A DNA stretch of 64,000 nucleotides from Candidatus Eisenbacteria bacterium (lineage in GTDB: Bacteria > Eisenbacteria > RBG-16-71-46), in NCBI GenBank assembly GCA_020847735.1, contig JADLBL010000020.1, forward strand, positions 443,632 through 507,631. Reading direction: 5' to 3'. The position numbers and the translations under genes are program-made. Shown here piece after piece: positions 4,497-61,863 of the stretch. How positions within the stretch are numbered: the first letter of the stretch is position 1; every line of letters starts with the position of its first letter. The notes below the pieces were generated by a model. The model was not told the DNA's origin. It saw only the letters and a program-made list of their open reading frames with translations, and searched no databases.

Positions 4497-5099
4497 TCAG
4501 GCCTCGCGCGCCGCACGATGGCGGCCGGCCCTGCTCGCAGGCCCCGGGGACGCGGGGCCGGTTTCGGACAACAGAAGCGTGAGCACATGCGGCGTCCGTC
4601 CGGCACGCGGCCGGCGGGCGCGAATGCGGTACACCATCTGCAGCAGCGCCTCCTGCAGGGCCTCGCGCTCGGCGGACGTCAGCCACAGGCACGAGCGCTG
4701 GTAGCGCGGAGTCGGTCCCTCGCCGGCCACGGCCCGGCGCAGCGCCCGCCGGTAGTCGCGCAGCCCGGAGCGCGCGACCACGCCCGCCACCCGTTCGGCG
4801 TGCGGGACGTGCCGGGCGGCGAGGTTCCGCGTGGCGACCCGCACCGACTTGACGCGCAACCGCCAGACCGCGGCCGGACGGCCGCCCGTGGAGCGGCCCC
4901 GCTCGGGTTGCGCCAGCCCGGCGCGCTGCAGGGTGCGCAGGTGGTGGTAAAGGGAATCGGGGCGCTTGCCTAATCGCCTGGCGAGATCCGCGACCGAAAT
5001 CGTCGGCGTGCTCTCGAGGATGACCACCATGTCCAGACGAGTGGGGGATGCAAGCGCCCCCAGTACGGTCGGGCTGGGCGTGATTGCCTTTGCCGCCAT
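4497..5099 (-). CDS. ArsR-like winged-helix transcriptional regulator
   Basis: Predicted DNA-binding repressor of 200 aa. Residues 10-75 form a winged helix of the ArsR/HTH_20 type: LASPTRLDMVVILE, then SVADLARRLGKRPDSLYHHL as recognition helix, then AGLAQPERG as the wing. No metal-binding ELCVCDL motif is present, so metal sensing is not indicated. The C-terminal half is Arg-rich and matches no effector domain I know. The gene stands alone. A large inverted repeat just upstream (5116-5145) strongly suggests autoregulation. Its other targets are unknown. Confidence 0.8.
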   Translation of the reverse strand: MAAKAITPSPTVLGALASPTRLDMVVILESTPTISVADLARRLGKRPDSLYHHLRTLQRAGLAQPERGRSTGGRPAAVWRLRVKSVRVATRNLAARHVPHAERVAGVVARSGLRDYRRALRRAVAGEGPTPRYQRSCLWLTSAEREALQEALLQMVYRIRARRPRAGRTPHVLTLLLSETGPASPGPASRAGRHRAAREA

Positions 5100-5115
5100 G
5101 GGCAGAGTCTTCCAC

Positions 5116-5145
5116 TTATTGAACTCCGAGGCAAGGATTCAATAA
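5116..5145. promoter_or_regulatory. Inverted-repeat operator of the ArsR-like regulator
   Basis: TTATTGAA (5116-5123) and TTCAATAA (5138-5145) are perfect inverted arms separated by 14 nt, 17 bp before the regulator start. Read on the minus strand, TTGAAT sits like a -35 element and AATAAG like a -10 element 16 nt later, so a bound repressor would cover the promoter. The AT-rich arms stand out against the GC-rich surroundings. Confidence 0.7.
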
Positions 5146-5314
5146 CTCGGAAGCCCGCGGCGGCCCCGCGGATCGGGACCGGTCTCCGGCCGCGGCGTTC
5201 CAACCGCGCCATGGCCGGCGGATCTTCGGAACGTTTCGGGCCCGCGGCCGGTCGAGGGTCGGGGCGGCAGGCGGCCGCGGTCGCCCGCCGGTCCCCGGAG
5301 GGTGGATTCGCGAG

Positions 5315-7732
5315 TCAGCGCGTGGCGATCTTCGCGCCCAGCGTGACGCGGTCAATCACGCGCGCCTCGATGCGGCCCCAATCGCGCAGCAGCGGGATGT
5401 AACGGTGTTCCGCCCATCGCGGACGCTGGTCGATCCGGAAGGCGTCGCTGTTCCAGGGCGGAACCACGGCGAGCGAGGACTCGGCGATCGCGAGATCCAC
5501 GACGTGGCGGAAGCCGGGCCCGTGCGTCACCCGGAAGTCCCAGGGCGCGCGCGTCCCGCCCACCGCGATGGTGCCGCCGTCGCCGTCCTCCTCGATCGGC
5601 TCGGGCGACCACTCGCGACCGGCGCGTGTCCCCAGCGCGTGCGCGAAGTACGCCCGGTGCGCGCGGCCCCACGTCCAGGTGAACAGATCGGGCCCGAGCC
5701 TCGCCTGCAGCGTGTCCAGCGCGCTCGTGAGCGCGGCGATGGCCACGGACGACGGGCGGCGGGCAGTCCCGCCGCCGCCGGCCAGCACCTCCGGGGCTTC
5801 GCCACGCAGCGCCGCCAGCGTCAGCCCGGGCAGGCCCTCGGTGCCGGTGCTGCGGGCGAACACGTTCCACCACGAACGATTGAGCGTCGGGGCCACCCGG
5901 TCGCGCTGGGAAAGCAGGTTCCAGGCCCGCATCAGCGCCACGGCCTCGCGCGCCCGGCTGCCGAGCGAATCGGCGAGCGAATCGGCGGCGGCGAGCAGCA
6001 CCGGGTTCGAACGGGCGCCGGCGCGGGAGAAGACGTCGTTCTGGATCGCCGCGGCGCCTTCGAGCGTGAGCGCCTTCGACTCGCCGATCAGCTCCGACAT
6101 GCGCGCGGCGCGGTCCTGGATCCAGTCGAATCGGTCCCAGCCGGGAAGGTCGCGCGGCCGGTTGTTGCCGTTGACGACCCAGCCGTCTCGCGGCACGCGC
6201 CAGGCGGGCATCGAGTCGGCCGGCAGGAACCCGGCCCATTCGTGGCGTCCGTCGGAGGGCAGCGGGCCGTAGGCGAACGGAAACGGGCGCAGCGGCATGA
6301 GCCCGGCCGCCTGATAGACGACGTGGCCCTCGTCGTCCGCGGCGACGCAGTTGAACGCGGGCGTCACGAGGCTGCGAAAGCGCCGCGCGATTTCGTGGGC
6401 CGATCGCGAACGCTCGAGGCCGACCATGTCGCGAACGGTGATGCGCGCGTCCTCCATCGCGCTCCAGCGCGCAGAGAGCGCGATGCCGCTCCCACGGTCC
6501 CAGCCCACGACCGGACCGTGCGGCGTCCAGCGCCGCTCGCGCACGAAGGCGGGAACGGGCAGGGGGATGCCGAAGCGGTGGATTCGAAGGTCGTAGGGCG
6601 CGGTCCGGACCGGCGCCCAACCACCCTGCCAGCGGACGCGGCGGCCGTCGGCCGACAGCGTGTCGGCGTACAGGTCGATGACGTCCGCGCCGAGCGAGGT
6701 GACGCCCCAGGCGCACGTCTCGTTCCGGCCCGAGACGATGCACGGAAGTCCCACGGCGGCCGCGCCGCTCGCGTCGAGGACTCCGGGGACGTACAGGTGC
6801 ACGACATGGAACGGCCCCGGCGTGGTCAGCCGCAGGTGCGGGTCGTTCGCGAGGATCGGCATGCCGCCCGCGGTGCGTCGCGGCCCGACGGCGAAGGCGT
6901 TGCTGGCGCGGTCGGAGCCATCCGCGGAACGGGCGGGAAACGCGCGCGCGGCGCCGGCGGCCGCCGCCAGCAGCGACGCGGGCAGCGGCGCGGTGCGGAC
7001 GGCGGCGGCCTTCGCCGGCGCCGGTGAAGCGCGGCGAAGCGAAGGCACGGCGTCGCCGGCCGAGTCCGGAATCGTGTCGAAGATCCACTGGCTTTCGAAT
7101 CGCCGCCGGTGCTCGATCCAGCCCGGACCGTGCTCGCGGATGAGCGCGGCCTCGCCCAGCTCGGGCAGCGCCAGATCGAGCGTCACGCCGTAGCCGAGCA
7201 GCAGCGCGTAGGTGTCCTCGGGCCTCCAGGGTTCGGGCCGGAGTCCGAGCGCCGCGAACTCCCCGCGCGGCGTGGCCGCCTCGCCGCGGCTGCCGAGCCA
7301 GGCGTTGATGCCGTCGGTGTAGCGCTGGACGAGCTCGCGAAGCGCGGGGTCCTGGCGGTCGCGCTGCCAGATCGCCGCGGCACGCTCGCGCAGCCGGAAG
7401 AGCTGCGCGCCCGCGTCGGCCGCGAGGGCCTCGTCGCCGAGAAAGCGGTGCGAGAGCCCCTGCGCCTGCGCGCGCGTCAGGACGAGCTGCCAGCTGCGGT
7501 CGCGCGCGGTGACCCAGCCCCACGCGAAGTAGAGGTCGGGCAGATTCGCCGCGCGGACGTGCGGCACGCCGTAGACGTCCGTCTCGATCGTGACGGTGGC
7601 GGCCGGCGGCGGCGCGGACGGCCAGCGGGCGCGCGGCGCGCACGTACACGCGCACAGCAGCGCGGCGGGCAGCAGGAGAGCAAGGGTGCTGGCGGCGTGC
7701 GGAACCGGCTCGGGGGAAAGTCGGGGTCGCAT
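5315..7732 (-). CDS. Penicillin acylase family (S45, Ntn hydrolase) lipoprotein
   Basis: Amidohydrolase of 805 aa, cleaved autocatalytically into alpha and beta chains. Family members hydrolyse penicillins, acyl-homoserine lactones or other N-acyl amides; the real substrate cannot be told. The alpha chain starts with VTIETDVYGVPHV and AWGWVTARDRSWQ. The nucleophile is Ser277 in RASNAFAVG, which becomes the N-terminus of the beta chain; GMPILANDPHL follows, as is usual. I chose the ATG at 7732 because it gives a signal peptide ending in LCAC, a plausible lipobox. Upstream in-frame starts reach 7828 but add an atypical leader. It lies divergent from the ROK kinase. Confidence 0.9.
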   Translation of the reverse strand: MRPRLSPEPVPHAASTLALLLPAALLCACTCAPRARWPSAPPPAATVTIETDVYGVPHVRAANLPDLYFAWGWVTARDRSWQLVLTRAQAQGLSHRFLGDEALAADAGAQLFRLRERAAAIWQRDRQDPALRELVQRYTDGINAWLGSRGEAATPRGEFAALGLRPEPWRPEDTYALLLGYGVTLDLALPELGEAALIREHGPGWIEHRRRFESQWIFDTIPDSAGDAVPSLRRASPAPAKAAAVRTAPLPASLLAAAAGAARAFPARSADGSDRASNAFAVGPRRTAGGMPILANDPHLRLTTPGPFHVVHLYVPGVLDASGAAAVGLPCIVSGRNETCAWGVTSLGADVIDLYADTLSADGRRVRWQGGWAPVRTAPYDLRIHRFGIPLPVPAFVRERRWTPHGPVVGWDRGSGIALSARWSAMEDARITVRDMVGLERSRSAHEIARRFRSLVTPAFNCVAADDEGHVVYQAAGLMPLRPFPFAYGPLPSDGRHEWAGFLPADSMPAWRVPRDGWVVNGNNRPRDLPGWDRFDWIQDRAARMSELIGESKALTLEGAAAIQNDVFSRAGARSNPVLLAAADSLADSLGSRAREAVALMRAWNLLSQRDRVAPTLNRSWWNVFARSTGTEGLPGLTLAALRGEAPEVLAGGGGTARRPSSVAIAALTSALDTLQARLGPDLFTWTWGRAHRAYFAHALGTRAGREWSPEPIEEDGDGGTIAVGGTRAPWDFRVTHGPGFRHVVDLAIAESSLAVVPPWNSDAFRIDQRPRWAEHRYIPLLRDWGRIEARVIDRVTLGAKIATR

Positions 7733-49967: not shown

Positions 49968-50549
49968 TCAGGAGCCGCGCACGAACGCGAGCACGTCCTC
50001 CACGTGGCCGCTGACGCTCACCCTGGGCCAGACGCGGGCGATGTGCCCGGTCTTGTCGATCACGAACGTGGTGCGCTCGATGTAGGTGAAGGACTTGCCG
50101 TCGCGTTCGCGCTGGCGCAGGACGCCGTAGGCGCGCGAGACCCGCCCGTCGGTGTCGGCGAGGAGCGGAAACGTCAGCTTCTCTTTGGCGCGGAAGCGGC
50201 GGTGCGAGGCGAGGTCGTCCATCGAGACGCCGAGCACGACGACCCCGGCGCGCTTGAGGTCGTCCCGGTGGTCGCGAAAATCACACGCCTCCTTGGTGCA
50301 GCCCGGCGTCTCGTCCTTCGGGTAGAAGTAGAGCACCACCGTCCGGCCCTTGAGCTTGTCCAGCTTCTGCGTGCCGCCCGCGGTCGAAGCGAGCGAGAAG
50401 TCGGGTGCGGCCTGTCCGACCTGCGGAAGCGCCGTGGAATCCATGGGCGCGGCGGCCGGCGCGGAGGACTGCGCGCGTGCCGGAGCAGGCGCGGCGGCGG
50501 CGGCGAGCGCGAACGTTGCGGCGAAGAGCAGGGTGGTGAGACGGGACAT
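49968..50549 (-). CDS. Exported thioredoxin-dependent peroxiredoxin (Bcp/PrxQ type)
   Basis: Reduces hydrogen peroxide and alkyl peroxides. The protein is 193 aa, with a signal peptide (1-26, ending APARAQ), so unlike cytoplasmic Bcp it acts in the periplasm. The peroxidatic Cys84 and the resolving Cys89 lie in DETPGCTKEACDFRD, the PrxQ arrangement. VGQAAPDFSL starts the fold. GGGAGG precedes the ATG at 50549 by about 6 nt. A periplasmic thiol reductant is needed; none is encoded nearby. Confidence 0.92.
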   Translation of the reverse strand: MSRLTTLLFAATFALAAAAAPAPARAQSSAPAAAPMDSTALPQVGQAAPDFSLASTAGGTQKLDKLKGRTVVLYFYPKDETPGCTKEACDFRDHRDDLKRAGVVVLGVSMDDLASHRRFRAKEKLTFPLLADTDGRVSRAYGVLRQRERDGKSFTYIERTTFVIDKTGHIARVWPRVSVSGHVEDVLAFVRGS

Positions 50550-50644
50550 CGGATCCTCCCGGTCGTGGGACGACGGCGCGCGGCGACGGTGGGTGAGGGG
50601 ACGGCCTTCGGATGCGGCGGTGGCGGGCGAGGCGCGCGCGGATT

Positions 50645-51670
50645 TCACGCTCCCGACCGCCGCGACTTTTCCCGGGCCCGGGAAGGGGTCTCGCCCGTCC
50701 AGCGTTTGAAAGCCCGATGAAACGTGCTCGGGTCCGCGAAGCCCAGCAGGTAGGCGATCTCGGCGATCGCGATGTCGGGCTGCTCGAGGTAGAGCTGTGC
50801 GGTGGCCCTTCTCACCTGGTCGGCGAGGGTGATGTACGAGCAGCCGAGCTCGCCCAGCCGCCGCTGCAGGCTTCGCGGGCTCATTCCCAGCTCCCGTGCG
50901 ACGGCCTCGAGCGAGGCCCGGTCGCCGCGAAGGCGGGCGCCGATGGCCTGCCTCGTGCGCTCCACCAGCGCCGGGCCCCTCGGCAGGTCGCGCAGCAACC
51001 GGTCGGCGTGCTCGCTCAGCACCTGCAGCACGCCGGGATGGGCGTGGGCCGTCGGGGTGTCCCAGGCTGCGCGGCCGATCTCGATCCGGCAGCGCCGCGC
51101 CTCGAACTCGACCGTGCAGCCGAAGATTCGCCGGTGCTCGCGGGGGTCGGCGGGCGCCGGGTGGACGAACGTCACGCGGAGGAGCGGAACCGGCGCCTCG
51201 GTGGCCGCGCGCACGTGCAGGACGAAGGCGGCGAAGCAGTACTCGGCGAACGCGCGCGCGACCGGGCCGGCGCCGCCCTCCTCGACGATGTCGAGCGTGA
51301 CCGGGTCGCCCGACTCGTCGATCGGCAGCCGGATGGCCGTGTTGATGAGGTGGAAATAACGCGCGGCGAAGCGGAACGCCTCGCCGACGGTGGCGGCGTT
51401 CGCGGCCATGAAGTCGATGACCTTGTAGGCGCCGAGCGGGCACGCCTCGGCGGCGTGCAGCGAGAGCACCGGATCGCGGGAGAGCTCGTAGGCCTTCTCC
51501 CACAGCCGGCCCACGACGGCCGCGTCGAGCCGGGCGTCCGGATCGTCCAGCTGCTCGCGGGGGACACCGGCGGCGCGCAGCAGTTCGGCCGCATCGAGGC
51601 CCAGCCCCTCGCAGGCGCCGACCATCGCGCGGCTCGAAACCGTGAGCACCGTTCCGGTTCGCGTCCACAT
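50645..51670 (-). CDS. AraC family regulator (arabinose-binding-domain type)
   Basis: Regulator of 341 aa in the OruR/ArgR-like group. The N-terminal domain (about 15-190) contains CEGLGLDAAELLRAAGV and DPVLSLHAAEACPLGAY, which fits PF12625. The AraC HTH pair spans about 235-335, with VARELGMSPRSLQRRLGE and IAEIAYLLGFADPSTFHRAFKR. The ATG at 51670 was chosen; an in-frame ATG at 51712 adds a less likely leader. Its target is unknown; the divergent barrel gene at 51838 is the nearest candidate. Confidence 0.88.
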   Translation of the reverse strand: MWTRTGTVLTVSSRAMVGACEGLGLDAAELLRAAGVPREQLDDPDARLDAAVVGRLWEKAYELSRDPVLSLHAAEACPLGAYKVIDFMAANAATVGEAFRFAARYFHLINTAIRLPIDESGDPVTLDIVEEGGAGPVARAFAEYCFAAFVLHVRAATEAPVPLLRVTFVHPAPADPREHRRIFGCTVEFEARRCRIEIGRAAWDTPTAHAHPGVLQVLSEHADRLLRDLPRGPALVERTRQAIGARLRGDRASLEAVARELGMSPRSLQRRLGELGCSYITLADQVRRATAQLYLEQPDIAIAEIAYLLGFADPSTFHRAFKRWTGETPSRAREKSRRSGA

Positions 51671-51837
51671 GCGGGTGCAGGCTACCGCAGGCGAAGGCGA
51701 TCTGGCGTGCAAAGCACGAACTCTGGCGTCCGCGGCCCGTCCCCGCCCCCGTGCCGCTCCGTAATCCGGCCAGGCACACGCGCGACGGGCGCGGGCCGCC
51801 GGGGCGCCGTCCCGGCCGCTGCGGAAGGAGGGACGTC

Positions 51838-52641
51838 ATGAAGCGAGCGACGCTGTATCTGGCCGCCCTGCTGGGGCTCGTTCCCACGCTGGCACTGGCG
51901 CATGGCGAGAACGGTCATGCCGCGGATCCCAACCTGCACGTGGATCCGGGTCTGAAGGATTGCTCCGTGGACTTCGCGCCCGGGTTGACGCAGGTCGCGT
52001 TCCGGCGCTTCGCCCGGGAGTTCGGTTCGGCGTCGGCGTTCACGCTCATGGCGCCGCCGACGACGCTCGGCCGCGGGCACGTCGCGTTCGCCCTCGACGT
52101 CACCTCGTTCTCGGTCGAGGAAAAGGCGGACGCGTGGAACGACACGTTCTCGCACCCGGACGACCGTCACGAGCTCGGCTCGCGCAGGCAGTTTCCCAAG
52201 CTCCGCCTGCGCGCAGGGCTGTCCGACCGGGCGGACCTCGGCGTCTTCTACACGGCGAACCCCAACGCCAACTATGGCTGGTTCGGCATCGAAGGCCGCT
52301 ACGCGCTGTGGCGGCAGGATGGGACGACGCCGGTGAGCGTGGTGGCGCGCGGCGCATGGACGAAGACGCTTTATGTGGACGACATAGACCTGCAGGCCGC
52401 CACCGGAGACCTCGAGGCGGGTCGGACGTTCTGGAACGTGTTCACGCCCTACGCCGGCGTCGGCACCACCGTCGTCGTGGTGCGCGAGACGACCGATTCG
52501 GTGGACCTGCATTCCGAGACGCTGCAGATCCCGCACGTCCTCGGGGGCGCCGAGCTGCGGTGGTGGCGCTTCTCGCTCGGCGGCGAAGTGCGCGCTTCGG
52601 CGCTCACGACCTTCGAAGTGCAGCTGGCGACGATCTTCTGA
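51838..52641 (+). CDS. Secreted beta-barrel-like protein of unknown function
   Basis: Protein of 267 aa with a signal peptide (1-21, ending LALAHG). A short His-rich start (HGENGHAADPNLH) could bind metal. The remainder shows alternating strands ending in VRASALTTFEVQLATIF, a closing aromatic residue typical of outer-membrane barrels. I recognise no family with confidence. AAGGAGGG precedes the ATG by about 8 nt. It is divergent from an AraC regulator across 167 bp. Confidence 0.7.
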   Translation: MKRATLYLAALLGLVPTLALAHGENGHAADPNLHVDPGLKDCSVDFAPGLTQVAFRRFAREFGSASAFTLMAPPTTLGRGHVAFALDVTSFSVEEKADAWNDTFSHPDDRHELGSRRQFPKLRLRAGLSDRADLGVFYTANPNANYGWFGIEGRYALWRQDGTTPVSVVARGAWTKTLYVDDIDLQAATGDLEAGRTFWNVFTPYAGVGTTVVVVRETTDSVDLHSETLQIPHVLGGAELRWWRFSLGGEVRASALTTFEVQLATIF

Positions 52642-52675
52642 TCGGATCCCGGCGGGGTCCGAAGCCCGTGGACAC

Positions 52676-52721
52676 CGGCCCGCCCCGTCGCCCGCCTCGC
52701 GGCGGCGACCGGCGCGGGCCG
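52676..52721 (+). terminator. Hairpin after the barrel gene
   Basis: Outer arms CGGCCCGC (52676-52683) and GCGGGCCG (52714-52721) enclose an inner GTCGCC/GGCGAC pairing. No T-tract follows. Further right (52722-52906) I see only a possible promoter, TTGACA (52806-52811) with TGATAC (52831-52836), and a short repeat of GTGCGAAAT. Confidence 0.4.
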
Positions 52722-52906
52722 CAGGTCGTGCGAAATGCCATGTGCGAGCGCGATGCGGTGCGAAATCCCGGACGCGACCGTGAAGTGTTTGTCACCCGGG
52801 CGGGATTGACACCGCACACGCGCCGGCGCTTGATACGCTTCGATGCGCGCCTCAGCCCGAGTTCCGGCGCCATCCTCCCATCCGACCGTCACCCGAAAGG
52901 TCGAGC

Positions 52907-54469
52907 TTGAAACCGTCCGGTCCGCTTCGCCCGCTCGCCGCGCTGGTCCTGATGTTCGTCGCTCTCGCCCCCGGACCCGCCTTCGCCCAGACGGATCCGC
53001 GGCCGAGCCCGCGCGACAACCACACGGCGATCTACGACCCGGTGCGCGACCGGATGATCGTGTTCGGCGGCTGGAACGGCGTCACGAACTTCGGCGACGC
53101 GTGGGCGCTGTCGCTCTCGGGCACGCCCACCTGGACGCCGCTCTCGCCGGCGGGCACGCCACCCGCGGGCCGCCGGTGGCACAGCGCCGTGTACGATTCG
53201 CTGCGCGACCGCATGCTGGTCTTTGGCGGCTTCACCGGCGATCTGTACGTCAACGACGTCTGGGCCCTGTCGCTCGCCGGCACTCCCGAGTGGACCGAAC
53301 TGACCCCCACCGGAACGCCGCCGAGCCCGCGCTATCGCCAGAGCGCCATCTACGACCCGGTGCGCGATCGGCTGGTGATCTTCGGCGGCTGGTTCTCGGG
53401 CGACGGCTACAACGACGTCTGGGCCCTGTCGCTCGCGGGCACCCCGCAGTGGCAGGAACTCACGCCCGCCGGACCGCTGCCGAGCCCGCGCATCTCGCAC
53501 AGCGCCATCTTCGATCCGATCCGCGACCGCATGCTCGTCTTTGGCGGCGTGGACGACAGCCTGCTGAACGAAACCTGGGCGCTGTCCATGGACAACCCGG
53601 CCTGGACGGAACTCTCGCCCGCGGGGGAGCGGCCCCTGCCGCGCTACATCCACAGCGCGGTCTACGACCCGGTGCGCGACCGCATGGTGATCTACGGCGG
53701 GTACGACGTCGCCCTTTACGGCGAGGACGCGTGGGCGCTCTCGCTCGCGGACTCCGGCTCCTGGAGCGAACTCGCGCCGGCCGGGTCGCTGCCTCCCGGC
53801 CGCCAGGGACACGGCGCGATTTACGATCCGCTTCGGGACCGCATGGTCGTCTTCGGCGGCTTCGGCGCCCCCGGCTTTCTCGACGACACCTGGTCGCTGT
53901 CGCTCGGCGACCCCACGGCGTGGACGCCGATGTTCCCCTCCGCGCTGCTGACGCTGACCGTGAACGCCGAGCACGGCACCGTGACGGAGGATCCGCTGCC
54001 GGCCGGGGGCGGGTTCGCCTACGGCACGGCCGTCCACCTGACCGCGGTCCCCGACGCCGGATACCACTTCGTGGACTTCAGCGGCGCGATCGCCGCGACG
54101 ACCGACACCGCCACCGTGGTCCTGGTCAGCGACGAGACGGTGACCGCCAGCTTCGCGCCCACGCTCGCGGTGGACGGAAACGCGCTGCCGGCCGCGACGC
54201 TCCTGCAGCCGGCGCGACCGAATCCGTTCCACGGCACCGCGACGCTGGACTTCAGCCTCGTGCGTGGCGGGCCCGTGGACCTTTCGGTGTTCGCGGTGGA
54301 TGGCCGGCACGTGCGCACGCTGGACCACGAGGCGCTGGCCGCCGGCGAGTACCGGGAGCGCTGGGACGGTCGCGACGACGACGGGAACCCGCTGGCTTCC
54401 GGCGTCTACTACGCGCGGCTCGAGACCGAGGACGGCCCGCTCACGCGGATCATCACCTACCTGCGGTGA
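52907..54469 (+). CDS. Secreted kelch-repeat protein with FlgD-like end (TTG start)
   Basis: Exported beta-propeller of 520 aa. A signal peptide (1-27, ending PAFAQT) precedes six or seven kelch-like repeats of about 55 residues, each with a core such as HSAIYDPVRDRMLVFGG followed by a WALSL strand (about 33-340). Then comes an InlB-type bacterial repeat (about 345-415, VNAEHGTVTEDPLPAGG) and a FlgD-like Ig domain (about 430-520, after RPNPF). No catalytic site is visible; a binding or structural surface role is likely. The start is TTG at 52907, with AAAGG 8 nt upstream and no ATG giving a signal peptide. Confidence 0.85.
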   Translation: MKPSGPLRPLAALVLMFVALAPGPAFAQTDPRPSPRDNHTAIYDPVRDRMIVFGGWNGVTNFGDAWALSLSGTPTWTPLSPAGTPPAGRRWHSAVYDSLRDRMLVFGGFTGDLYVNDVWALSLAGTPEWTELTPTGTPPSPRYRQSAIYDPVRDRLVIFGGWFSGDGYNDVWALSLAGTPQWQELTPAGPLPSPRISHSAIFDPIRDRMLVFGGVDDSLLNETWALSMDNPAWTELSPAGERPLPRYIHSAVYDPVRDRMVIYGGYDVALYGEDAWALSLADSGSWSELAPAGSLPPGRQGHGAIYDPLRDRMVVFGGFGAPGFLDDTWSLSLGDPTAWTPMFPSALLTLTVNAEHGTVTEDPLPAGGGFAYGTAVHLTAVPDAGYHFVDFSGAIAATTDTATVVLVSDETVTASFAPTLAVDGNALPAATLLQPARPNPFHGTATLDFSLVRGGPVDLSVFAVDGRHVRTLDHEALAAGEYRERWDGRDDDGNPLASGVYYARLETEDGPLTRIITYLR

Positions 54470-54554
54470 GGCGGTCAGGGCCCGGAACGTGGTAGTGGTT
54501 GGCACCTCCCACGTCCCATTCGTTCCGGTCCCTTCGCCCGACCCGAGGTCGCCC

Positions 54555-55004
54555 GTGAAGAAGCGCCCGCCGCACGACGGCGTCTACGCCCGCATCGGCC
54601 CCTCGCGCGTTCACGGCGTCGGCGTCATCGCCATTCGCGATATTCCGGCCGGGACGCTCGTTTTTCGGGGTGAGAACGAGCGCGTCGCATGGGTCTCACG
54701 CGCGGCCGTGCGGCGCCTGCCGCCCGCGACGCGCGCCCTGTACGAGGACTTCGGCATGATCTGGGGCGGGCGCATCGGCGTGCCCCCGAGCCTCAACAAC
54801 CTGTCCGTGGGCTGGTACGTGAACCATTCCACGCGGCCGAACGTCGAGGCCGGTGAGGACGCCCGCTTCCGCGCGCTTCGCCGGATTCGCAGGGGCGAGG
54901 AACTGACCGCCGACTACCGGACGTTCGTGGACGAGCCGCTGGCGTTTCGCGCCCGAGGAGCGCGGAGGAAGAAGCGCGCGCCAGCCGGCAGGCGCGAGAC
55001 GTAG
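54555..55004 (+). CDS. SET-domain protein, first of a pair
   Basis: Small SET-domain protein of 149 aa, a putative lysine methyltransferase using SAM. The fold starts with the SRVHGVGVIAIRDIPAGTLV strand pair, then the pseudoknot motif WYVNHSTRPN, and GEELTADYRTF with the active Tyr. It lacks post-SET cysteines and ends in a basic tail (RGARRKKRAPAGRR). I chose GTG at 54555 because GAGG lies 6 nt upstream; longer in-frame starts begin near 54490. Substrate unknown. A second SET gene follows 76 bp later. Confidence 0.8.
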   Translation: MKKRPPHDGVYARIGPSRVHGVGVIAIRDIPAGTLVFRGENERVAWVSRAAVRRLPPATRALYEDFGMIWGGRIGVPPSLNNLSVGWYVNHSTRPNVEAGEDARFRALRRIRRGEELTADYRTFVDEPLAFRARGARRKKRAPAGRRET

Positions 55005-55080
55005 CCTTCGCCGCCTCGTCCGCCCGAAGCGGCGGCATTCGGTTCATGCTTCGAGTGGTCTCGCGCGCATTCTTTGCTTG

Positions 55081-55716
55081 ATGTCGGGGCGCGTTGCCAC
55101 GAAAGTGCGCGTGGTCGGCATCGTCCCGCGCGAGTCGACCCTCGGACGCGGGACTTCACGCAGGATGGATCCGCACGCACGGAGGCGTCCCTTGGCCGAG
55201 GCCTATCCGAAGCTGCTGTCGCTGCCGCGTCACGCCCACCCTTCCGCAACGCTGCTGCGCACCGGCGCCGATCTCGTCGGCATCCAGGTGCAGGATCGTC
55301 ACCGCCGCCTCGTCGCCGTCGGCGACATCGCCCGCGGAACGCTCGTCTTCCGGCTCGAGGGCCGTGAAAGCCCGAAGCCGACGCGGTACTCCGTGCAGGT
55401 GGGCCCGGGGCTTCATCTCGACCCCGACTTCGGCAGGGACGAGTTCGAGATGGTGCAGAAGTACTTCTGGCGCTACCTGGACCACGCCTGCGAGCCGACC
55501 GTGCGGATCATCGGCCGCGACGTGATCGCGCTGCGCGACATCGCCGAGGACGAGGGCGTGACCTTTCACTACTGCACCACCGAGTACGACATGGCGACAC
55601 CCTTCGACTGCCGGTGCGGGAGCGATCACTGCATGGGCAGGATCCGCGGCGCGTGTCACCTGACGCCGGTCCAGCGCCGCCGGCTGGCGAAGTGGATGGC
55701 CGACTACCTGAAGTAG
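55081..55716 (+). CDS. SET-domain protein with post-SET cysteines, second of a pair
   Basis: SET-domain protein of up to 211 aa. The fold starts near residue 67 (GADLVGIQVQDRHRRLVAV), with YLDHACEPTVR in place of the NHSxxPN motif, then IAEDEGVTFHYCTTEYD and a post-SET-like zinc cluster FDCRCGSDHCMGRI. The first 60 residues are unlike a SET domain. Start is uncertain: ATG at 55081 or at 55168, neither with a strong ribosome binding site. Whether it methylates proteins is inference from family only. Confidence 0.75.
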   Translation: MSGRVATKVRVVGIVPRESTLGRGTSRRMDPHARRRPLAEAYPKLLSLPRHAHPSATLLRTGADLVGIQVQDRHRRLVAVGDIARGTLVFRLEGRESPKPTRYSVQVGPGLHLDPDFGRDEFEMVQKYFWRYLDHACEPTVRIIGRDVIALRDIAEDEGVTFHYCTTEYDMATPFDCRCGSDHCMGRIRGACHLTPVQRRRLAKWMADYLK

Positions 55717-55854
55717 TGGAGAAGGGCCGCGGCGACCCGCCGGGGTGAACCTCGGAGGGTCGCCGCGCGCTCGAGAGAGGGCGATCGTGAATGCGGCCGG
55801 AGTCCGTGCCCGGCGTGTGCCCGGCCCTGCTGCCCGAGGTTTGCGCCCCGCCGC

Positions 55855-56199
55855 TCAGGACTTCCGGACGATATCCACCGAAACCTCCACCGCCGTCTGC
55901 GTTCCCCGGTTCTCGAGCCAGTGCAGGGTGTTCCGGTCCTCGGGCCATCCTAGGCCCGGCCCATACTCGGTCGCGACGCCATTGCGGTGATCGGTGATCG
56001 TGCCCTGCAGGATGTAGACTGTGCCCGGCCTGCCCCTGTGGTCGTGAAGCGGGCCGAAGACCGCACCCGGCTCCATCGTGACCAGTCGCATTCGCAGCTC
56101 GCGGCCCTCCATGCCCTCGATCTCGGGGCCGAGGTCAATCGCCGCCAACAGCTTCACCGTGACGCCGCGGGAATCCGGCACCTTCCGCTCTTCGCTCAT
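55855..56199 (-). CDS. Cupin domain protein
   Basis: Small single-domain cupin of 114 aa. Motif 1 is GPLHDHRGRPGTVYILQGTI, with two His and a missing Glu (Gly-Thr-Val-Tyr instead). Motif 2 is weak: TLHWLENRG keeps one His. Metal binding is therefore plausible but not certain. GGGAGA lies before the ATG at 56199. Cupins of this size may be isomerases, dioxygenases or simple binding proteins; no function can be assigned. Confidence 0.75.
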   Translation of the reverse strand: MSEERKVPDSRGVTVKLLAAIDLGPEIEGMEGRELRMRLVTMEPGAVFGPLHDHRGRPGTVYILQGTITDHRNGVATEYGPGLGWPEDRNTLHWLENRGTQTAVEVSVDIVRKS

Positions 56200-56491
56200 C
56201 GAGTTTCTCCCGTCGCAGGGCTGCCGCCCGCTGAAGTGCGCAGGTCGCGCGCGGCCGATCCGCGTGCTCACGACCTCGGCGTGCACGCTTCATGGACGCG
56301 GCGGCCGCGCGTTACGCGCCGCACGATAACCGGTGGCTGACGCGCTGTCAGGGCATCCACCGTTGCCCCCGGTGTCGGTTGCCCGCCCACCGCTGCCGTC
56401 CCCTTGCGTGCGCGCTCAAGCGCGGTCACGACGCGTTCGATAACCACCCCGCGAAGCCGGGCCCAGCCTGCCCGGTTCCCCAGGGGGTTTC

Positions 56492-56959
56492 ATGCTCCGG
56501 TTCCTGCGGTTCCGCGTCCTGCTGGCCGTCGCCCTGATCCTGTTCGCGATGGCCGCCGTGCATCAGGCCATGCACACCACGCAAGGCGTGAAGGGTGCGC
56601 TCGAGGACGGGCCCCTCGCGTCGGCGGACTTCCGCGCCCCGATCGTGGACGTCGAGACCCTCCTGTTTTCGCCGGCTCCGCTCTCGATGGAAGATCGAAC
56701 GCGGCTCGCCGGGGCGATCGACGCGATGCGCCGCGAGCTCGAGGCGCGCGGTGGGACGAATCTGGCGAAGTACAGCGCGCGCGAGCTCGGGACGCTGGCG
56801 GGCATGAGCCGCGGACTCGGCAGGCTCGAGGGCGACCCCCTCGATCGCGTCCGGCAGAACTGGATGCGCATCCGCTCGAACACCTTCGACGACGCGTGGT
56901 GGTACCGCTTCAGCGAATCCGACCCGCCCGTGCCGCGCGAGGAGCCTCCGACGAAGTAG
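56492..56959 (+). CDS. Small single-pass membrane protein of unknown function
   Basis: Protein of 155 aa; family not recognised. One N-terminal hydrophobic segment (FRVLLAVALILFAMAAV) anchors it or is a signal peptide. The rest is soluble, helical and charged, with RTRLAGAIDAMRRELEARGG and ending DDAWWYRFSESDPPVPRE. AGGGGG lies about 5 nt before the ATG. It is the last gene of normal base composition before the island. Confidence 0.6.
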   Translation: MLRFLRFRVLLAVALILFAMAAVHQAMHTTQGVKGALEDGPLASADFRAPIVDVETLLFSPAPLSMEDRTRLAGAIDAMRRELEARGGTNLAKYSARELGTLAGMSRGLGRLEGDPLDRVRQNWMRIRSNTFDDAWWYRFSESDPPVPREEPPTK

Positions 56960-57425
56960 CAGGCGAGGTGGAGCGAGCGCACGCGCAGGCCGAATCGCGA
57001 GGGGTGGAGCTGCGGGTGCGCGTTGATGCGACCGGGTGTGGCGTCCCCCACCGTACCTACTTGGAACCATCTGCGGGATTGGCTGCGCGAGATGGACGGC
57101 GTGCGGGCCGTATTGACGGGCGAAGCGGCCTGACGCGCGATCTGCGGGCGCGAGGGCGCGACGTGGACACTCCCACGCAAGCTTCGCACCAGCGCGAGCC
57201 GGGGTGGCGGGGGCGTCGAGCCGCCGCAGGCGGCTCCAGCGGGGCGGGGGGGCGCAGGCGCGTCGTCGCCCCTCGGACGCGGCTGTGCAGTGCCGCGGAC
57301 CTCGTCTCCGCGTGGTTCGGCGGCTCTTGCGGTTATCCTGCGCGCGGACCCCGCCGATGCAGCTGGCTTGCGCGCCAGCATAGCTCCGCTGCAAGCGGCG
57401 GCGATTGTCGGAGGAACCGGCTGCC
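56960..57425. other. 466-bp junction region at left edge of the island
   Basis: No supported gene. It holds a 35-codon ORF (57026-57133), the 10-mer TGGCGTCCCC (57039-57048) also found at the 3' end of the tRNA-Glu gene, a tight hairpin (57218-57225 with 57229-57236) and a TATCCT -10-like box (57334-57339) before the next gene. Confidence 0.4.
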
Positions 57426-58262
57426 ATGGCTCGACGTGTTGCGCACGAACGAGAAGACAGGGTGCTCTCGGAGTTATGCGACTGCTTGGCGCTCCGTGAG
57501 GGCGTCGCGGTGACCGTAACTGACCGGCCGGACAGGGCGCCTGGCGCGAATGGCGGCTGCGACGCCATCATCCAGCGTGGGGTGAGTTCGGAGGCGGTAG
57601 AGATCACGCGGCTCTATGCCGCTCCTCAGCACCCGCGCACCGTGAGGCTGCTGGAGCAGATCAGGCCCGTGATTGCCGCGAGGGTGGTCGCTGCGTATCC
57701 GAGTTCGATCGTCATGATCGGCGTCCCGGCCGAGGACTTCAAACCGGGATTGGACTGGCAGGCGCTCGCTCAGTCTGTTGCCGATGCCGCGATCGCTGCG
57801 CTGCGGGACCTCTCGCCGCGTGAGCAACTGCCCGTGACGGTTGCGGGCTTGCCGACTCAATCGCTTGTTCGGGTGCTCTTGCAGGGCGCGCCCGAGGGAT
57901 TCTGCGCCGTGAATCCGGTTGTTTGGGGCCGGGACCCGGAAGACCTGACCGTCGACGACCTCTGCAGGGCATTGGCCGACAAGCGAGCGTCGATGCGTTG
58001 TTACCAGCAGGCGGGGCTGCGGACCATCCTGCTCTTGGATTGCGAGCACTTCCCTTGGCCGCCCCACGTGTCTGGGCTCTTCGGTCGCGCCATCGAGCTC
58101 GAGGATCCGAGCGCATTCGACGAGGTCTACGCTGTTCTCTCGGCCCACAGTCCATCGTTCGTTATCCCGCTCAAGTTGGGCTCGGTCGCCCCGGTCGGCC
58201 AGCCAGAACTTGGCGATTTCATCGGGCTCCGAGCTGCGGTCGCGCGGCTGCACCAGTACTAG
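57426..58262 (+). CDS. Uncharacterised island protein, possibly nuclease-like
   Basis: Protein of 278 aa, soluble, family not recognised. Its N-terminal 60 residues show a charged helix (REDRVLSELCDCLALREG), a strand ending with CDAII and then a strand AVEITRL: an Asp, a spacer, then an Glu in a hydrophobic strand, as in PD-(D/E)xK-type folds. The lysine is not evident, so this is only a hint. The C-terminus has TILLLDCEHFPWPP and DEVYAVLS. GGAGG (57411-57415) precedes the ATG by 10 nt; TTG at 57405 is possible. G+C is lower than in neighbours, and it sits beside an AbiE system. Confidence 0.55.
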   Translation: MARRVAHEREDRVLSELCDCLALREGVAVTVTDRPDRAPGANGGCDAIIQRGVSSEAVEITRLYAAPQHPRTVRLLEQIRPVIAARVVAAYPSSIVMIGVPAEDFKPGLDWQALAQSVADAAIAALRDLSPREQLPVTVAGLPTQSLVRVLLQGAPEGFCAVNPVVWGRDPEDLTVDDLCRALADKRASMRCYQQAGLRTILLLDCEHFPWPPHVSGLFGRAIELEDPSAFDEVYAVLSAHSPSFVIPLKLGSVAPVGQPELGDFIGLRAAVARLHQY

Positions 58263-58306
58263 CCACCCTCTGCGAGGGCACTCGGGCCGCTTGCACCTGT
58301 TCGCTT

Positions 58307-58330
58307 GAACTGGCCGTTCTCTGCCAGTTC
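58307..58330. repeat. Inverted repeat between unknown gene and AbiEi
   Basis: GAACTGGC (58307-58314) and GCCAGTTC (58323-58330) are perfect inverted arms 8 nt apart, 44 bp after the previous stop. Without a T-tract it may be a weak terminator or a protein site. Confidence 0.45.
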
Positions 58331-58489
58331 AGGAGTTTGAGTGCGAGTCTGTCTATCGCATGGCCTCGCTACGACTCCATGCGTAAGGCAGCGAATCGCA
58401 TGGCTTGCCCCGCCCCCGTCGGCCCCCGGCCAGCGTGTTGCTCGATCTGGGCGGCGATGTCGGTCCGGCCACCGAAACCCCCTTTTCAG

Positions 58490-58545
58490 TTGACGACAAA
58501 CCGTCATCCGGGGCAAAGTTGGCCCCGTATGGCGACGAAACGTCA
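58490..58545. promoter_or_regulatory. AbiE promoter with paired operators
   Basis: TTGACG (58490-58495) and CAAAGT (58514-58519) fit a promoter with 18-nt spacer, 9 nt before the ATG at 58529. Two related inverted repeats flank the start: TGACG/CGTCA (58491-58506, 6-nt spacer) and GACG/CGTC (58534-58544, 3-nt spacer). Their centres lie about 40 bp apart, near four helical turns. A further GGGGC/GCCCC pair (58510-58526) precedes the ATG. AbiEi antitoxins are known to repress their own operon through inverted repeats. Confidence 0.6.
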
Positions 58546-59359
58546 ACAGGCACTCGGGGCCTACCTGGCCTTTCTGACTGCGAACCCGGTCTTCTCGCTC
58601 GACGATCTGGCGAAGGTCGCGGGTGGTCGGGACCCGCGCGCCAGGGCGCGCGAGCGCGTGAAGTACTACGCCGAGACGGGGCGCGTGCGCCGGCTTGCGC
58701 GGGAGCTGTATGCGGCGGTGCCGGCGGGGGCGCAGGCGGACAACTACGCACCTGACGCGTTTCTCGTGGCGGCAGCGCTGCGCGCGGACGCCGTCTTCAG
58801 CCACCACAGCGCGCTCGAGCTGCTGGGAGCCGCGCATAGCGACTGGAGCGTGTGCACGGCGTACACGGCGGGGACGCCCACGAGCGTGCGCTGGGGTTTG
58901 CACACCGCCCGCCTGCTGGCAGCGCCGGCGTCAGCCTTGGGTACGAAGTGGAGCACCCTCGGCGTGCGCAGCGTGCAGCGCGCGGGGCGGACGCTCCGTG
59001 TCACTGGCCCGGAGCGCACCCTCGTCGAAGGCTTCCGCCAGCTGCGGTGGGTCGGTGGGCTGGAGGAGCTCGCGGAGTCGGCGGGTGGTTTCGCTTCGCT
59101 GGATCTCAAGGTCCTGCGTGAGGTCCTCGCGGCCTACGACAAGCGCTCGCTCTGGGCCGCTGTCGGGTGGTTCCTCGAGCGCCACGCGAAGGCGTTCTAC
59201 GTCACGCCGGGCGTGCTGGAGGAGTTCGAGAAGCACCGCCCCAAGGCCCGGCACTACCTGCCGCGCGGGAAGAGAGGCGGCGTATTCGTGCCGCGATGGA
59301 ACCTCATGTTGCCGCCATCGCTGGTGGCCGAGGGCGGAGCCGGTGAACCTCTCGCGTGA
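58529..59359 (+). CDS. abiEi: AbiEi family antitoxin/transcriptional repressor (type IV TA)
   Basis: Antitoxin of 276 aa that counteracts AbiEii without direct binding and represses the operon. The N-terminal winged helix (about 1-60) contains FSLDDLAKVAGG and YAETGRVRRLARELYAAV. The AbiEi C-terminal domain follows: DAFLVAAALRADAVFSHHSALELLG and LRVTGPERTLVEGFRQL. It overlaps the toxin start by 17 bp. Codon choice and G+C are lower than in flanking core genes, which suits transfer. Confidence 0.88.
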   Translation: MATKRQQALGAYLAFLTANPVFSLDDLAKVAGGRDPRARARERVKYYAETGRVRRLARELYAAVPAGAQADNYAPDAFLVAAALRADAVFSHHSALELLGAAHSDWSVCTAYTAGTPTSVRWGLHTARLLAAPASALGTKWSTLGVRSVQRAGRTLRVTGPERTLVEGFRQLRWVGGLEELAESAGGFASLDLKVLREVLAAYDKRSLWAAVGWFLERHAKAFYVTPGVLEEFEKHRPKARHYLPRGKRGGVFVPRWNLMLPPSLVAEGGAGEPLA

Positions 59360-60314
59360 CGTGATCGTCGCCCTGGAGGCGGAGACCGGCTTCCGCGCGA
59401 CGACCCTGGAGAAGGTGCTGCGCTTGGGCGAGGTGGCTGCAGGGATCGCCGAGCACCCCTTCCTCGGCCCGCGGCTCGTGCTCAAGGGCGGCACGGCAAT
59501 CCAGCTCGCCCTCGGCTCGCCGCTGCGGCTCTCGGTGGATCTCGACTTCAACTACGTCGGCGAGCTGGACCGAGAGGCGATGCTGCGCGAGCGGCCGGAC
59601 GTGGAGGCTGCGCTCGACCGCATCGCGCGCGCGCTCCGGTACGACGTATCCCACTCGGCCGACGAGCATGCCGGCAGGAAGTTCTATCTCGGTTACCGCT
59701 CTCACGCGGGGTCGCAAGACCGAATCGAGCTGGACGTCAACTACCAGATGCGGCTGCCCATCGTCACACCCGTCGAGCGCGAGCTTTGGCAACCGGGCAG
59801 CACGTCTCGACCGCCGATCCGCTGCGTGGGCGACGAGGAGCTCTGGGCGGGCAAGATCGCGGCGCTCCTGGACCGCACCATGCCGCGGGATCTGTTCGAC
59901 GTCGCGCACCTCGCCGAGCGGTCGCCCCGGCTGATCGGCGACGAGCGATTCGGGAAGATCGTGGTGGCATGGTGCGGGATCCTGCCGCACCCGCTCCACA
60001 GCTACGGGTTGAATCGCGTGGACCGCGTGGACGACGCGACTATCAGCGAGCAGCTTGTGCCGATGCTCGCCGGAGGCTCTCAGCCATCGCGGCCAGATCT
60101 CGCGCAGCGGTGCCGCGAGGTGCTTGGGACGCTGCTCGCGCTGACCGGGTCTGAAACCGAGTACTGCGATCGCCTGCAGCGGGGAGAACTGAAGCCGGAG
60201 CTCGTGTTTGGAGACGGTGATCCACTGGCGGAGCGATTTCGCGGACACCCGGCACTGAAGTGGAAGGCAATCAATGCGGGTGAACACGCCCGCCGTCAAC
60301 CCGGAGGCAACTGA
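59343..60314 (+). CDS. abiEii: AbiEii family nucleotidyltransferase toxin (type IV TA)
   Basis: Toxin of 323 aa with a DUF1814 nucleotidyltransferase fold; related enzymes transfer nucleotides to tRNA 3' ends or proteins and halt growth on phage infection. The nucleotide site reads KGGTAIQLA (48-56) with SVDLDFNY carrying Asp66 and Asp68. YDVSHSADEHAGRKFYLGY and GKIAALLDRTMPRDLFDVAHL are later family motifs with the expected Lys and Asp. GTG start at 59343 inside the antitoxin gene, no ATG fits. All catalytic residues look intact. Confidence 0.88.
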   Translation: MNLSRDVIVALEAETGFRATTLEKVLRLGEVAAGIAEHPFLGPRLVLKGGTAIQLALGSPLRLSVDLDFNYVGELDREAMLRERPDVEAALDRIARALRYDVSHSADEHAGRKFYLGYRSHAGSQDRIELDVNYQMRLPIVTPVERELWQPGSTSRPPIRCVGDEELWAGKIAALLDRTMPRDLFDVAHLAERSPRLIGDERFGKIVVAWCGILPHPLHSYGLNRVDRVDDATISEQLVPMLAGGSQPSRPDLAQRCREVLGTLLALTGSETEYCDRLQRGELKPELVFGDGDPLAERFRGHPALKWKAINAGEHARRQPGGN

Positions 60315-60429
60315 GTCCATGCGATCCAAGTTGCCATGGTTGGAATGCTCCCGAGAAGTGCCAAACGCTGAGGTTTCCGACTGACTGGCGCAGGGCTACA
60401 CGAGAACCCTCAACTGGAGGTGCCTTTTC

Positions 60430-60618
60430 ATGAAGATCGCGTGTTTAAGCTGAAGGCGATTCGAATTCGAAGTCGAACTCAACGAGATGGATTTTCGACG
60501 AGCGCCCGTAATCGCCCTTACTTGCCCCGCCTGCGGGAAGTCGACAGCAGTTCAGCAGCGGTCAGGCGGTGGGATCGAGATCGCCCTCGACAAGCACCTT
60601 GAAAAGGAACGGGGCTGA
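60430..60618 (+). pseudogene. Small zinc-ribbon gene with in-frame TGA at a Cys position
   Basis: GGAGG (60416-60420) lies 9 nt before an ATG that reads MKIACLS and then TGA (60451-60453). The same frame continues for 54 codons (RRFEFEVELNEMDFRR..., CPACGK) to TGA at 60616. With Cys at the stop, the protein would be a 62-aa zinc ribbon with Cys5-x2-Cys8 and Cys32-x2-Cys35. TGC to TGA by one base is the simple explanation. Translation could restart at the ATG at 60487 and give 43 aa with one CxxC. Selenocysteine is an alternative, see findings. Confidence 0.6.
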
Positions 60619-60743
60619 GCGCTTCCCTGACCGCCGAGCCAAACAGTTGGTAGGAGGCCCTGCGAATGCCCTTCCTGGACGCTCATGATCCCCGACCGCT
60701 GAGCGGAACCTGCCAACGACTTTGAGACACTCGCTTCTTGAGT

Positions 60744-60930
60744 TTACTGAGCAGCGGCCATGCGTACGGCCGCGGACGTGGGATTCGGGCTCGCGAGGCG
60801 CTCGAGCTCCGGATCGGCCTTCACAGTTGGCCCAGGATCGCCGATCGTGACCTCGTTCGACTCCGGGGTCGGGATGATTTCGACGCCGAGGGCCGTCGCG
60901 CGCGCTGCCGGCGGGTTGATCCACACCGCG
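60744..60930 (-). pseudogene. Possible C-terminal fragment of an unknown minus-strand gene
   Basis: On the minus strand a frame ending in TAA at 60744-60746 shows core-like codon use and reads WINPPAARATALGVEIIPTP and then DPELERLASPNPTSAAVRMA. It overlaps the N-terminal part of the integrase frame, which does not look like an integrase there. It may be a leftover joined to a truncated integrase by rearrangement. Family unknown. Confidence 0.3.
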
Positions 60931-61787
60931 CGTGTCGTGAAGGGGTACATCCATGCCCGCCTCACGAAGGGTGCAGCGCCGGCAACCGTCAAGAACGAGG
61001 TGGGAGTGCTTGGCCGCGCCTTCACGTTGGCCTGCCGTTCGGGGCACATGCCGCACCGGCCGTACTTGCCGAGCCCGCGCGTCAGCAACGCCCGCACGGG
61101 CTTCTTCACCGACGCTGAGGTGCGCACGCTACCGTAGCACCTGCCCGAGTACATGCGGCCATTCGTCGAGGCGGCGTTCATCACCGGGTGGCGTCGCGGT
61201 GAGCTGCGCGGCTTACGCTGGACGCAAGTGGACTGGGAGGGCGGCACGATTCGTCTCGAGCGAGTGACCACGAAGTCTGGTGAGCCGCGGTCGTTTCCGT
61301 TTGCCGCGCACCCGCGACTGGCAGAGCTGCTGATCGAGCAGCGCGCAATGACATTGTCGTTCGAGCGAAAACACGAAACGGTCTGCCCGTTGGTCCTCCA
61401 CCGCCCCGGTCATCAGGTCGCGTGGTACTACGAAGGCTGGCGCACCGGGTGCGAGAAGGCCGGCGTCCCAGGTCGACTGTTCCACGATCTGCGGCGTTCC
61501 GCTGTGCGCAAGCTCGTTCGAGCCGGCGCCTCCGAGTAGGTAGCCATGTCCATCACCGGCCACAAGACGCGCTCGGTGTTCGACCGCTACCACATCGTTT
61601 CGTCGAACGATCAGATCGAGGCGGTGAAGAAACTCGCGATCCTGCACGGTGCCGTTGTTGCAGAGCAGCGCAAAGTCGTCGCGATCAACGAAGTGCGCGC
61701 CACGAGAAGAGGGACAATACAGGGGACAATCGAGGGACAGTGGCCCTCGGAATCGTTCGCAAGTCCCTGCGACGCAATGGAGGCAGC
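60760..61787 (+). pseudogene. Tyrosine recombinase (phage integrase), broken by two in-frame TAG codons
   Basis: One reading frame carries an integrase from about 60930: the core-binding domain (YIHARLTKGAAPATVKNEVG), then the catalytic domain with Arg in GWRRGELRGLRW, HDLRRSAVRKL (HxxR), GHKTRSVFDRY with the nucleophile Tyr (61588-61590). TAG codons interrupt it at 61135-61137 and 61537-61539; both fit CAG to TAG changes, and no frameshift exists. The first 57 codons do not look like an integrase, so the 5' end is probably lost. The frame runs on into the tRNA gene. Confidence 0.85.
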
Positions 61788-61863
61788 TGGCGTCCCCAAC
61801 GGGATTCGAACCCGTGTTACCGCCGTGAAAGGGCGGTGTCCTAGGCCTCTAGACGATGGGGAC
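61788..61863 (-). tRNA. tRNA-Glu (anticodon TTC), CCA encoded
   Basis: The minus strand folds as a tRNA: acceptor GTCCCCA/TGGGGAC, anticodon stem CCGCC/GGCGG around CTTTCAC (anticodon TTC), and a T arm ACGGG/CCCGT around TTCGAAT. It closely resembles E. coli tRNA-Glu. The 3' CCA is encoded at 61788-61790. Its 3' end faces the broken integrase gene, the usual arrangement where an island has entered at a tRNA. Confidence 0.97.

Follow-up and report, generated by a model that had tools for sequence, protein, structure and literature searches.

The in-frame TGA in a small reading frame of a Candidatus Eisenbacteria genome is best explained as the scar of a mutation. We put a probability of roughly 0.7 on the frame being an orphan zinc-ribbon pseudogene that lost its function when a nonsense substitution struck the cysteine codon of a zinc ligand, and that lies in a decaying island at a tRNA-Glu gene. 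Codon 8 would formerly have specified cysteine, and the UGA that replaced it is probably read as a stop. On balance this explanation, one of the two originally put forward, is better supported than the other, the insertion of selenocysteine (Sec), because there is decay next door, no good SECIS element was found, the product falls into no known family and the affected residue resembles a structural zinc ligand. The features of the locus are collected in Table 1, in which all positions refer to the window, i.e. the whole stretch of 64,000 nucleotides that was analysed.

Table 1. Features of the small frame and of the surrounding island.
Feature	Position	Strand	Evidence
AbiEi-type antitoxin gene, open	58529..59359	+	PADLOC PDLC02270, E 2.3e-60
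AbiEii-type nucleotidyltransferase toxin gene, open, 115 bases 5' of the small frame	59343..60314	+	PADLOC, E 1.6e-84
Shine-Dalgarno-like AACTGGAGG (GGAGG 60416-60420) with ATG 60430-60432	60412..60432	+	sequence
Small zinc-ribbon frame with TGA at codon 8; ligands would be Cys5, codon 8, Cys32 and Cys35	60430..60618	+	
In-frame TGA, second position of the first CxxC	60451..60453	+	
Best SECIS-like hairpin, 5 bp, loop UGGAU, 34 nt past the TGA, no better than background	60483..60497	+	
43-codon ORF from the next ATG, alternative product	60487..60618	+	
Tyrosine integrase remnant, TAG in frame at 61135-61137 and 61537-61539	60925..61731	+	
tRNA-Glu (TTC), probable integration site	61788..61863	-	

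From its ATG the frame runs for seven codons to the internal TGA, continues for 54 sense codons and ends at a second TGA (60616-60618). The translation is MKIACLS-U-RRFEFEVELNEMDFRRAPVIALTCPACGKSTAVQQRSGGGIEIALDKHLEKERG, with CPACGK at residues 32-37, and the internal TGA occupies the place of the +3 partner of Cys5 in a CxxC pair. The original prediction, that MKIACLS is followed by TGA and that the same frame then goes on to CPACGK, was thus exact. The GGAGG ends 9 bases 5' of the ATG, and both other frames contain stops across 60430-60618. The GC content at third codon positions is 0.63 as against 0.84-0.86 in the adjacent AbiE genes, so that codon usage gives little support for the frame being coding. 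The stretch 60280-60800 showed no site resembling a terminator or a promoter. When the window is read in six frames, the pattern of a cysteine, two residues, a cysteine or stop, 12-35 residues and CP.CG is seen once, whereas 60 first-order Markov copies contain it 0.03 times on average. Seven frames of up to 60 codons with a Shine-Dalgarno-preceded ATG terminate at a TGA that is followed by 40 or more further open codons, and the small frame is the only one in which the TGA lies three residues past a cysteine; both sets of criteria were formulated post hoc and the figures are therefore descriptive.

Three cysteines (Cys5, Cys32 and Cys35) are encoded in the frame, and the fourth position of the two-CxxC layout is the TGA. 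When cysteine was placed at position 8, the best of five single-sequence AlphaFold2 models reached a mean pLDDT of 80.1 (range 60.9-80.1) and a pTM of 0.61, and its predicted strands (residues 2-5, 11-14, 27-31 and 38-44) would follow the order of elements of a zinc ribbon. Structure matches of this model by VIA-align had Z scores of 2.0-4.7, all low; they include spliceosomal, ribosomal, MCM, RNA-polymerase, rubredoxin, HypA and LysW chains together with unrelated chains, a viral protease for example. Many of these chains presumably carry zinc-ribbon, knuckle or rubredoxin sites; the arrangement is a common one, and the likeness is no proof of kinship. A Foldseek search with the model gave no match at E <=0.001; that the fold searches point to no family is not evidence in itself.

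At the level of sequence, the small zinc-ribbon proteins of the families Zn_ribbon_4, Zn_ribbon_8 and the Lar-like phrog_6422 resemble the small frame in having two cysteine pairs about 23 residues apart; they differ in that the matches to them are weak (E 0.018-0.04) and the Pfam ones lie far below the curated cut-offs (14.8 against 34.4 bits for Zn_ribbon_8, 14.3 against 30.3 bits for Zn_ribbon_4). The best PHROGs match was likewise weak (E 0.017), and PADLOC returned a weak match to the candidate-defence model PDC-M14A (E 0.0053, residues 3-39). Neither Pfam profile was listed once codon 8 was entered as X; since, in addition, the profiles remain below their cut-offs, the cysteine at codon 8 is one that we partly assume. 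The original prediction of a standard four-cysteine zinc ribbon, made for the case that the stop stands for cysteine, therefore stands as regards the layout, with which the strand order of the single-sequence model agrees; it does not stand as regards the curated profiles, and the fourth cysteine is one that we infer.

If the locus holds a functional gene at all, that gene may begin at the ATG at 60487 and specify a 43-residue protein with a single CPAC knuckle, in which case MKIACLS would be a short leader or a remnant. The frame from this ATG to 60618 is open, and the best weak sequence matches all lie past codon 8, within residues 19-58 (1qyp at 19-41, LysW at 30-58). The good Shine-Dalgarno sequence, on the other hand, precedes 60430 and not 60487, and a lone CxxC pair would make an unusual zinc site, while the upstream C-x-x-stop suits the missing half. 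We consider this later start unlikely.

The search for relatives that might show which residue belongs at codon 8 returned no convincing homologue, either with the 62-residue reading in six frames of 47 genomes of the class (which is also the phylum set; own genome included) or with the 43-residue piece in six frames of 59 genomes, again including its own. One match outside the genome itself, in G025, had E values of 7.4e-4 and 2.9e-4, and in a single-pair comparison 36% of 56 aligned residues were identical (E 5e-9); the ORF concerned has neither CxxC pair and G025 has no integrase match, and the similarity was judged to be due to chance. Two sets of patterns run against genome_contigs and viral_contigs gave no match; such scans detect mainly close relatives, and distant ones may escape. 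A tblastn search against phages found nothing and one against plasmids gave seven records at E 0.2-0.8, all rejected; the one sequence that was read (L022) has a CPDC pair and no upstream CxxC, and its alignment starts before the likely ATG.

The neighbourhoods of related mobile genes were searched in the same way. In 18 wider stretches around related integrases (one of them from the same genome) the best tblastn matches had E values of 0.012-0.013 over 30 residues and included no CPAC pair, and were taken as chance. No small zinc-ribbon gene is annotated downstream of the plasmid AbiEii relatives in the two records examined of 113, and AbiEii gave no match in a viral scan. Another integrase of the same genome (contig C8), whose alignment row contains a TGA, appears simply to terminate at that TGA.

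The island around the small frame is partly degraded. The integrase next to it is 68-69% identical to that of the relative G014 (L026), whose own frame is open over 420 codons. In the window the similarity becomes clear at residue 101 of the translated G014 stretch; the roughly 100 N-terminal residues before that point can no longer be recognised, save for a match at E 1.2 to residues 59-80 in another frame. In the closest relatives that cover the places of the two in-frame TAG codons, the first is Glu (L026) and the second is Asn or Gln (L026, L028), and both places are variable among the remaining relatives. The loss of about 100 recognisable N-terminal residues and the two in-frame TAGs bear out the earlier view of the island as decaying. 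The AbiE pair is open, which shows that the decay does not extend throughout the island. AbiEi and AbiEii form a type IV toxin-antitoxin pair, situated directly upstream of the small frame and in the same direction.

The integrase match ends at 61731 and adjoins the 3' end of the tRNA-Glu gene. Related integrases gave 28 matches in 17 of the 47 genomes, its own included; one of these (L047, G016:C157:34850-35353) contains an in-frame TAG, and broken members of the family thus occur beyond the window too. The tRNA-Glu gene and a neighbour that we take to be an ExeA/SPOR-like gene are found as a pair in all eight relatives fetched (seven of the 11 others found, plus G014). Three of the eight (G003, G004 and G014) have an integrase of this family at the tRNA-Glu gene; the contig ends at or near it in two (G002 and G008), and the fetched tRNA-Glu stretch contains no such integrase in the other three (G001, G005 and G009). 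Because the same integrase family is present there in three of eight relatives, this tRNA-Glu gene is a site that elements enter repeatedly, and the element in the window is one with a broken integrase.

To judge from its position, the AbiE pair probably belongs to the tRNA-Glu element. A direct repeat of the tRNA end at the far side of the element was looked for and not found: the best candidate agrees at 15 of 23 positions within 50001-61700, and no exact copy of at least 13 bases is present elsewhere in the window. In G005 (L102, region 4589-6034), an AbiEii-like match (29% identity, E 1.4e-6) has the tRNA-Glu gene on one side and, at 6012-6034, a 23-bp repeat of the tRNA end on the other; AbiE-type cargo may thus enter the same tRNA-Glu site in a further species.

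It is conceivable that the TGA is an assembly error and that the real codon 8 is intact. The genome is a 27-contig assembly whose read type is not given, which leaves some room for such an error; the integrase remnant, by contrast, shows decay alongside, and we regard an error here as very improbable.

The host itself is very probably able to read UGA as selenocysteine. The genome contains matches to SelA (C3:85833-86936, E 9.4e-137), SelB (C11:70755-72611, E 1.1e-99) and SelD (C1:24890-25813, E 4.2e-103), the last of which adjoins a tRNA-Sec gene (selC, C1:25940-26030). The tRNA-Sec gene scores 74.1 bits, where the gathering score of the model is 47; 5 of 14 control genomes also pass this threshold, and weight is placed on the height of the score. 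By these sequence matches the machinery (selA, selB, selC and selD) is complete. Furthermore, one of four molybdopterin oxidoreductase matches (L053, G000:C1:240771-242042, minus strand) is interrupted by just one in-frame TGA, whose context, CNRT-TGA-HAP, we take to be the classic FdhA selenocysteine site. Since FdhA carries a TGA of this type, the genome very probably makes use of the system. According to the original prediction, a genome lacking selenocysteine machinery would speak against recoding; selA, selB, selD and tRNA-Sec were all found, together with the FdhA site, and the easiest refutation of selenocysteine therefore falls away.

The small frame could accordingly be imagined to encode a CxxU zinc-ribbon-like selenoprotein, made with the SelB and tRNA-Sec of the genome, in which selenocysteine would act as a redox residue or as a metal ligand. 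We regard this as quite unlikely. It would agree with the complete machinery and the Sec-type FdhA, with the exact placement of the TGA, which a random nonsense change would seldom produce, and with the frame staying open for 54 codons past it. CXXU is a known selenocysteine motif, and bacterial CXXU selenoproteins include SelW-like and AhpD-like proteins and hypothetical protein 1 (PMC1088965). The small frame shares with them a cysteine, two residues and an in-frame TGA in a host with selenocysteine machinery; it is unlike them in having no convincing SECIS and no known family, and its second pair, CPAC, suggests a structural zinc site and not a redox site.

A small dual-CXXC family with selenocysteine members does exist, NF041197, for which the selenocysteine motif is given as RxU (PMC13188914). 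The likeness lies in the small size, the two CXXC pairs and the selenocysteine of some members. The small frame, however, scores 12.3 bits (E 0.14) against a cut-off of 40 bits, matches over residues 28-43 only and would have CxxU in place of RxU. None of the 47 genomes of the class reaches the NF041197 cut-off, and weak matches occur in eight of them, the present genome not being among these. Also against selenocysteine are that no convincing relative was found to show conservation and that the adjoining integrase is a remnant. Literature searches on bacterial zinc-ribbon selenoproteins with SECIS returned nothing, and among the titles on zinc fingers none concerned bacterial selenocysteine zinc ligands.

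The SECIS search used a script written for the bacterial model described in the Fig. 2 legend of PMC13188914; as stated in that legend, the loop has 3-9 nt with a G in its first two positions, the stem has 4-16 bp, the distance from the UGA is 16-37 nt and the MFE is <=-7.5 kcal/mol, and we required four stacked pairs at the loop. In favour of selenocysteine, the best hairpin past the small-frame TGA has a G counted within the first two loop positions and lies inside the permitted range of distance. Its extended form reaches -7.3 kcal/mol, narrowly outside the limit, and 261 of 400 randomly sampled TGAs (out of the 1,079 in the window) score at least as well. The scan discriminates poorly, as 150 of the 400 equal the score of FdhA itself, for which a hairpin other than the one with a GGUCU loop was chosen; it is thus weak in GC-rich DNA. 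The FdhA hairpin with the GGUCU loop has a seven-pair stem 18 nt past the TGA and is present when 45 or 50 nt are folded but absent when 60 nt are, whereas GGU is absent from the 50 nt from the small-frame TGA onward. This difference in the loop is a sharper hint than the energy scan.

Four folds of the region do not differ noticeably from their shuffled counterparts (z 0.32, -0.91, -0.07 and 0.61). The palindrome TTCGAATTCGAA forms a small stem only, with the loop AAUU, closer to the TGA than the SECIS model permits. The energy just short of the limit, the many equally good TGAs and the unremarkable folds make this check negative to neutral, in line with the earlier remark that no convincing SECIS hairpin was visible. 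A more specific proposal, that a mobile cargo gene on the AbiE island encodes a new selenoprotein family with a CxxU...CxxC zinc ribbon and a SECIS of a type other than that of FdhA, appears to us to have little chance of being right.

The mutational origin of the TGA has points against it as well. Only 2.5-4% of the single-base paths to a nonsense codon strike codon 8, and a random change would therefore seldom land there; 10-16% strike any of the four cysteine codons. The remaining 54 codons contain no further stop. The cysteine at codon 8 is not shown by any homologue; three cysteines are encoded either way, and the fourth is presumed from the layout.

Nonsense-mutated cargo genes are a known kind in decaying integrative elements at tRNA sites. 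The small frame resembles them in its single in-frame stop near a wrecked integrase at a tRNA gene, and it differs in that the host has selenocysteine machinery and the adjoining AbiE pair is open. We suggest that the frame was a small orphan cargo gene of the integrative element at tRNA-Glu, whose ancestral product would have been a four-cysteine zinc-ribbon protein of about 62 residues. One substitution may then have changed the codon for the second cysteine of the first CxxC to TGA, with the result that translation from the Shine-Dalgarno-backed ATG would now stop after seven residues, and the gene would be a pseudogene like the adjacent integrase remnant.

Were the TGA read as selenocysteine after all, selenium would be placed at a zinc-ribbon ligand of a mobile cargo protein. 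As a pseudogene, the small frame is in itself of small importance. It does point to a trap, for simple hairpin scans of GC-rich DNA are unable to tell mutation from selenocysteine when nearly two thirds of the sampled TGAs (261/400) score at least equally well, and where selenocysteine machinery is present, a nonsense change in a cysteine codon of a small mobile gene can mimic a selenoprotein.
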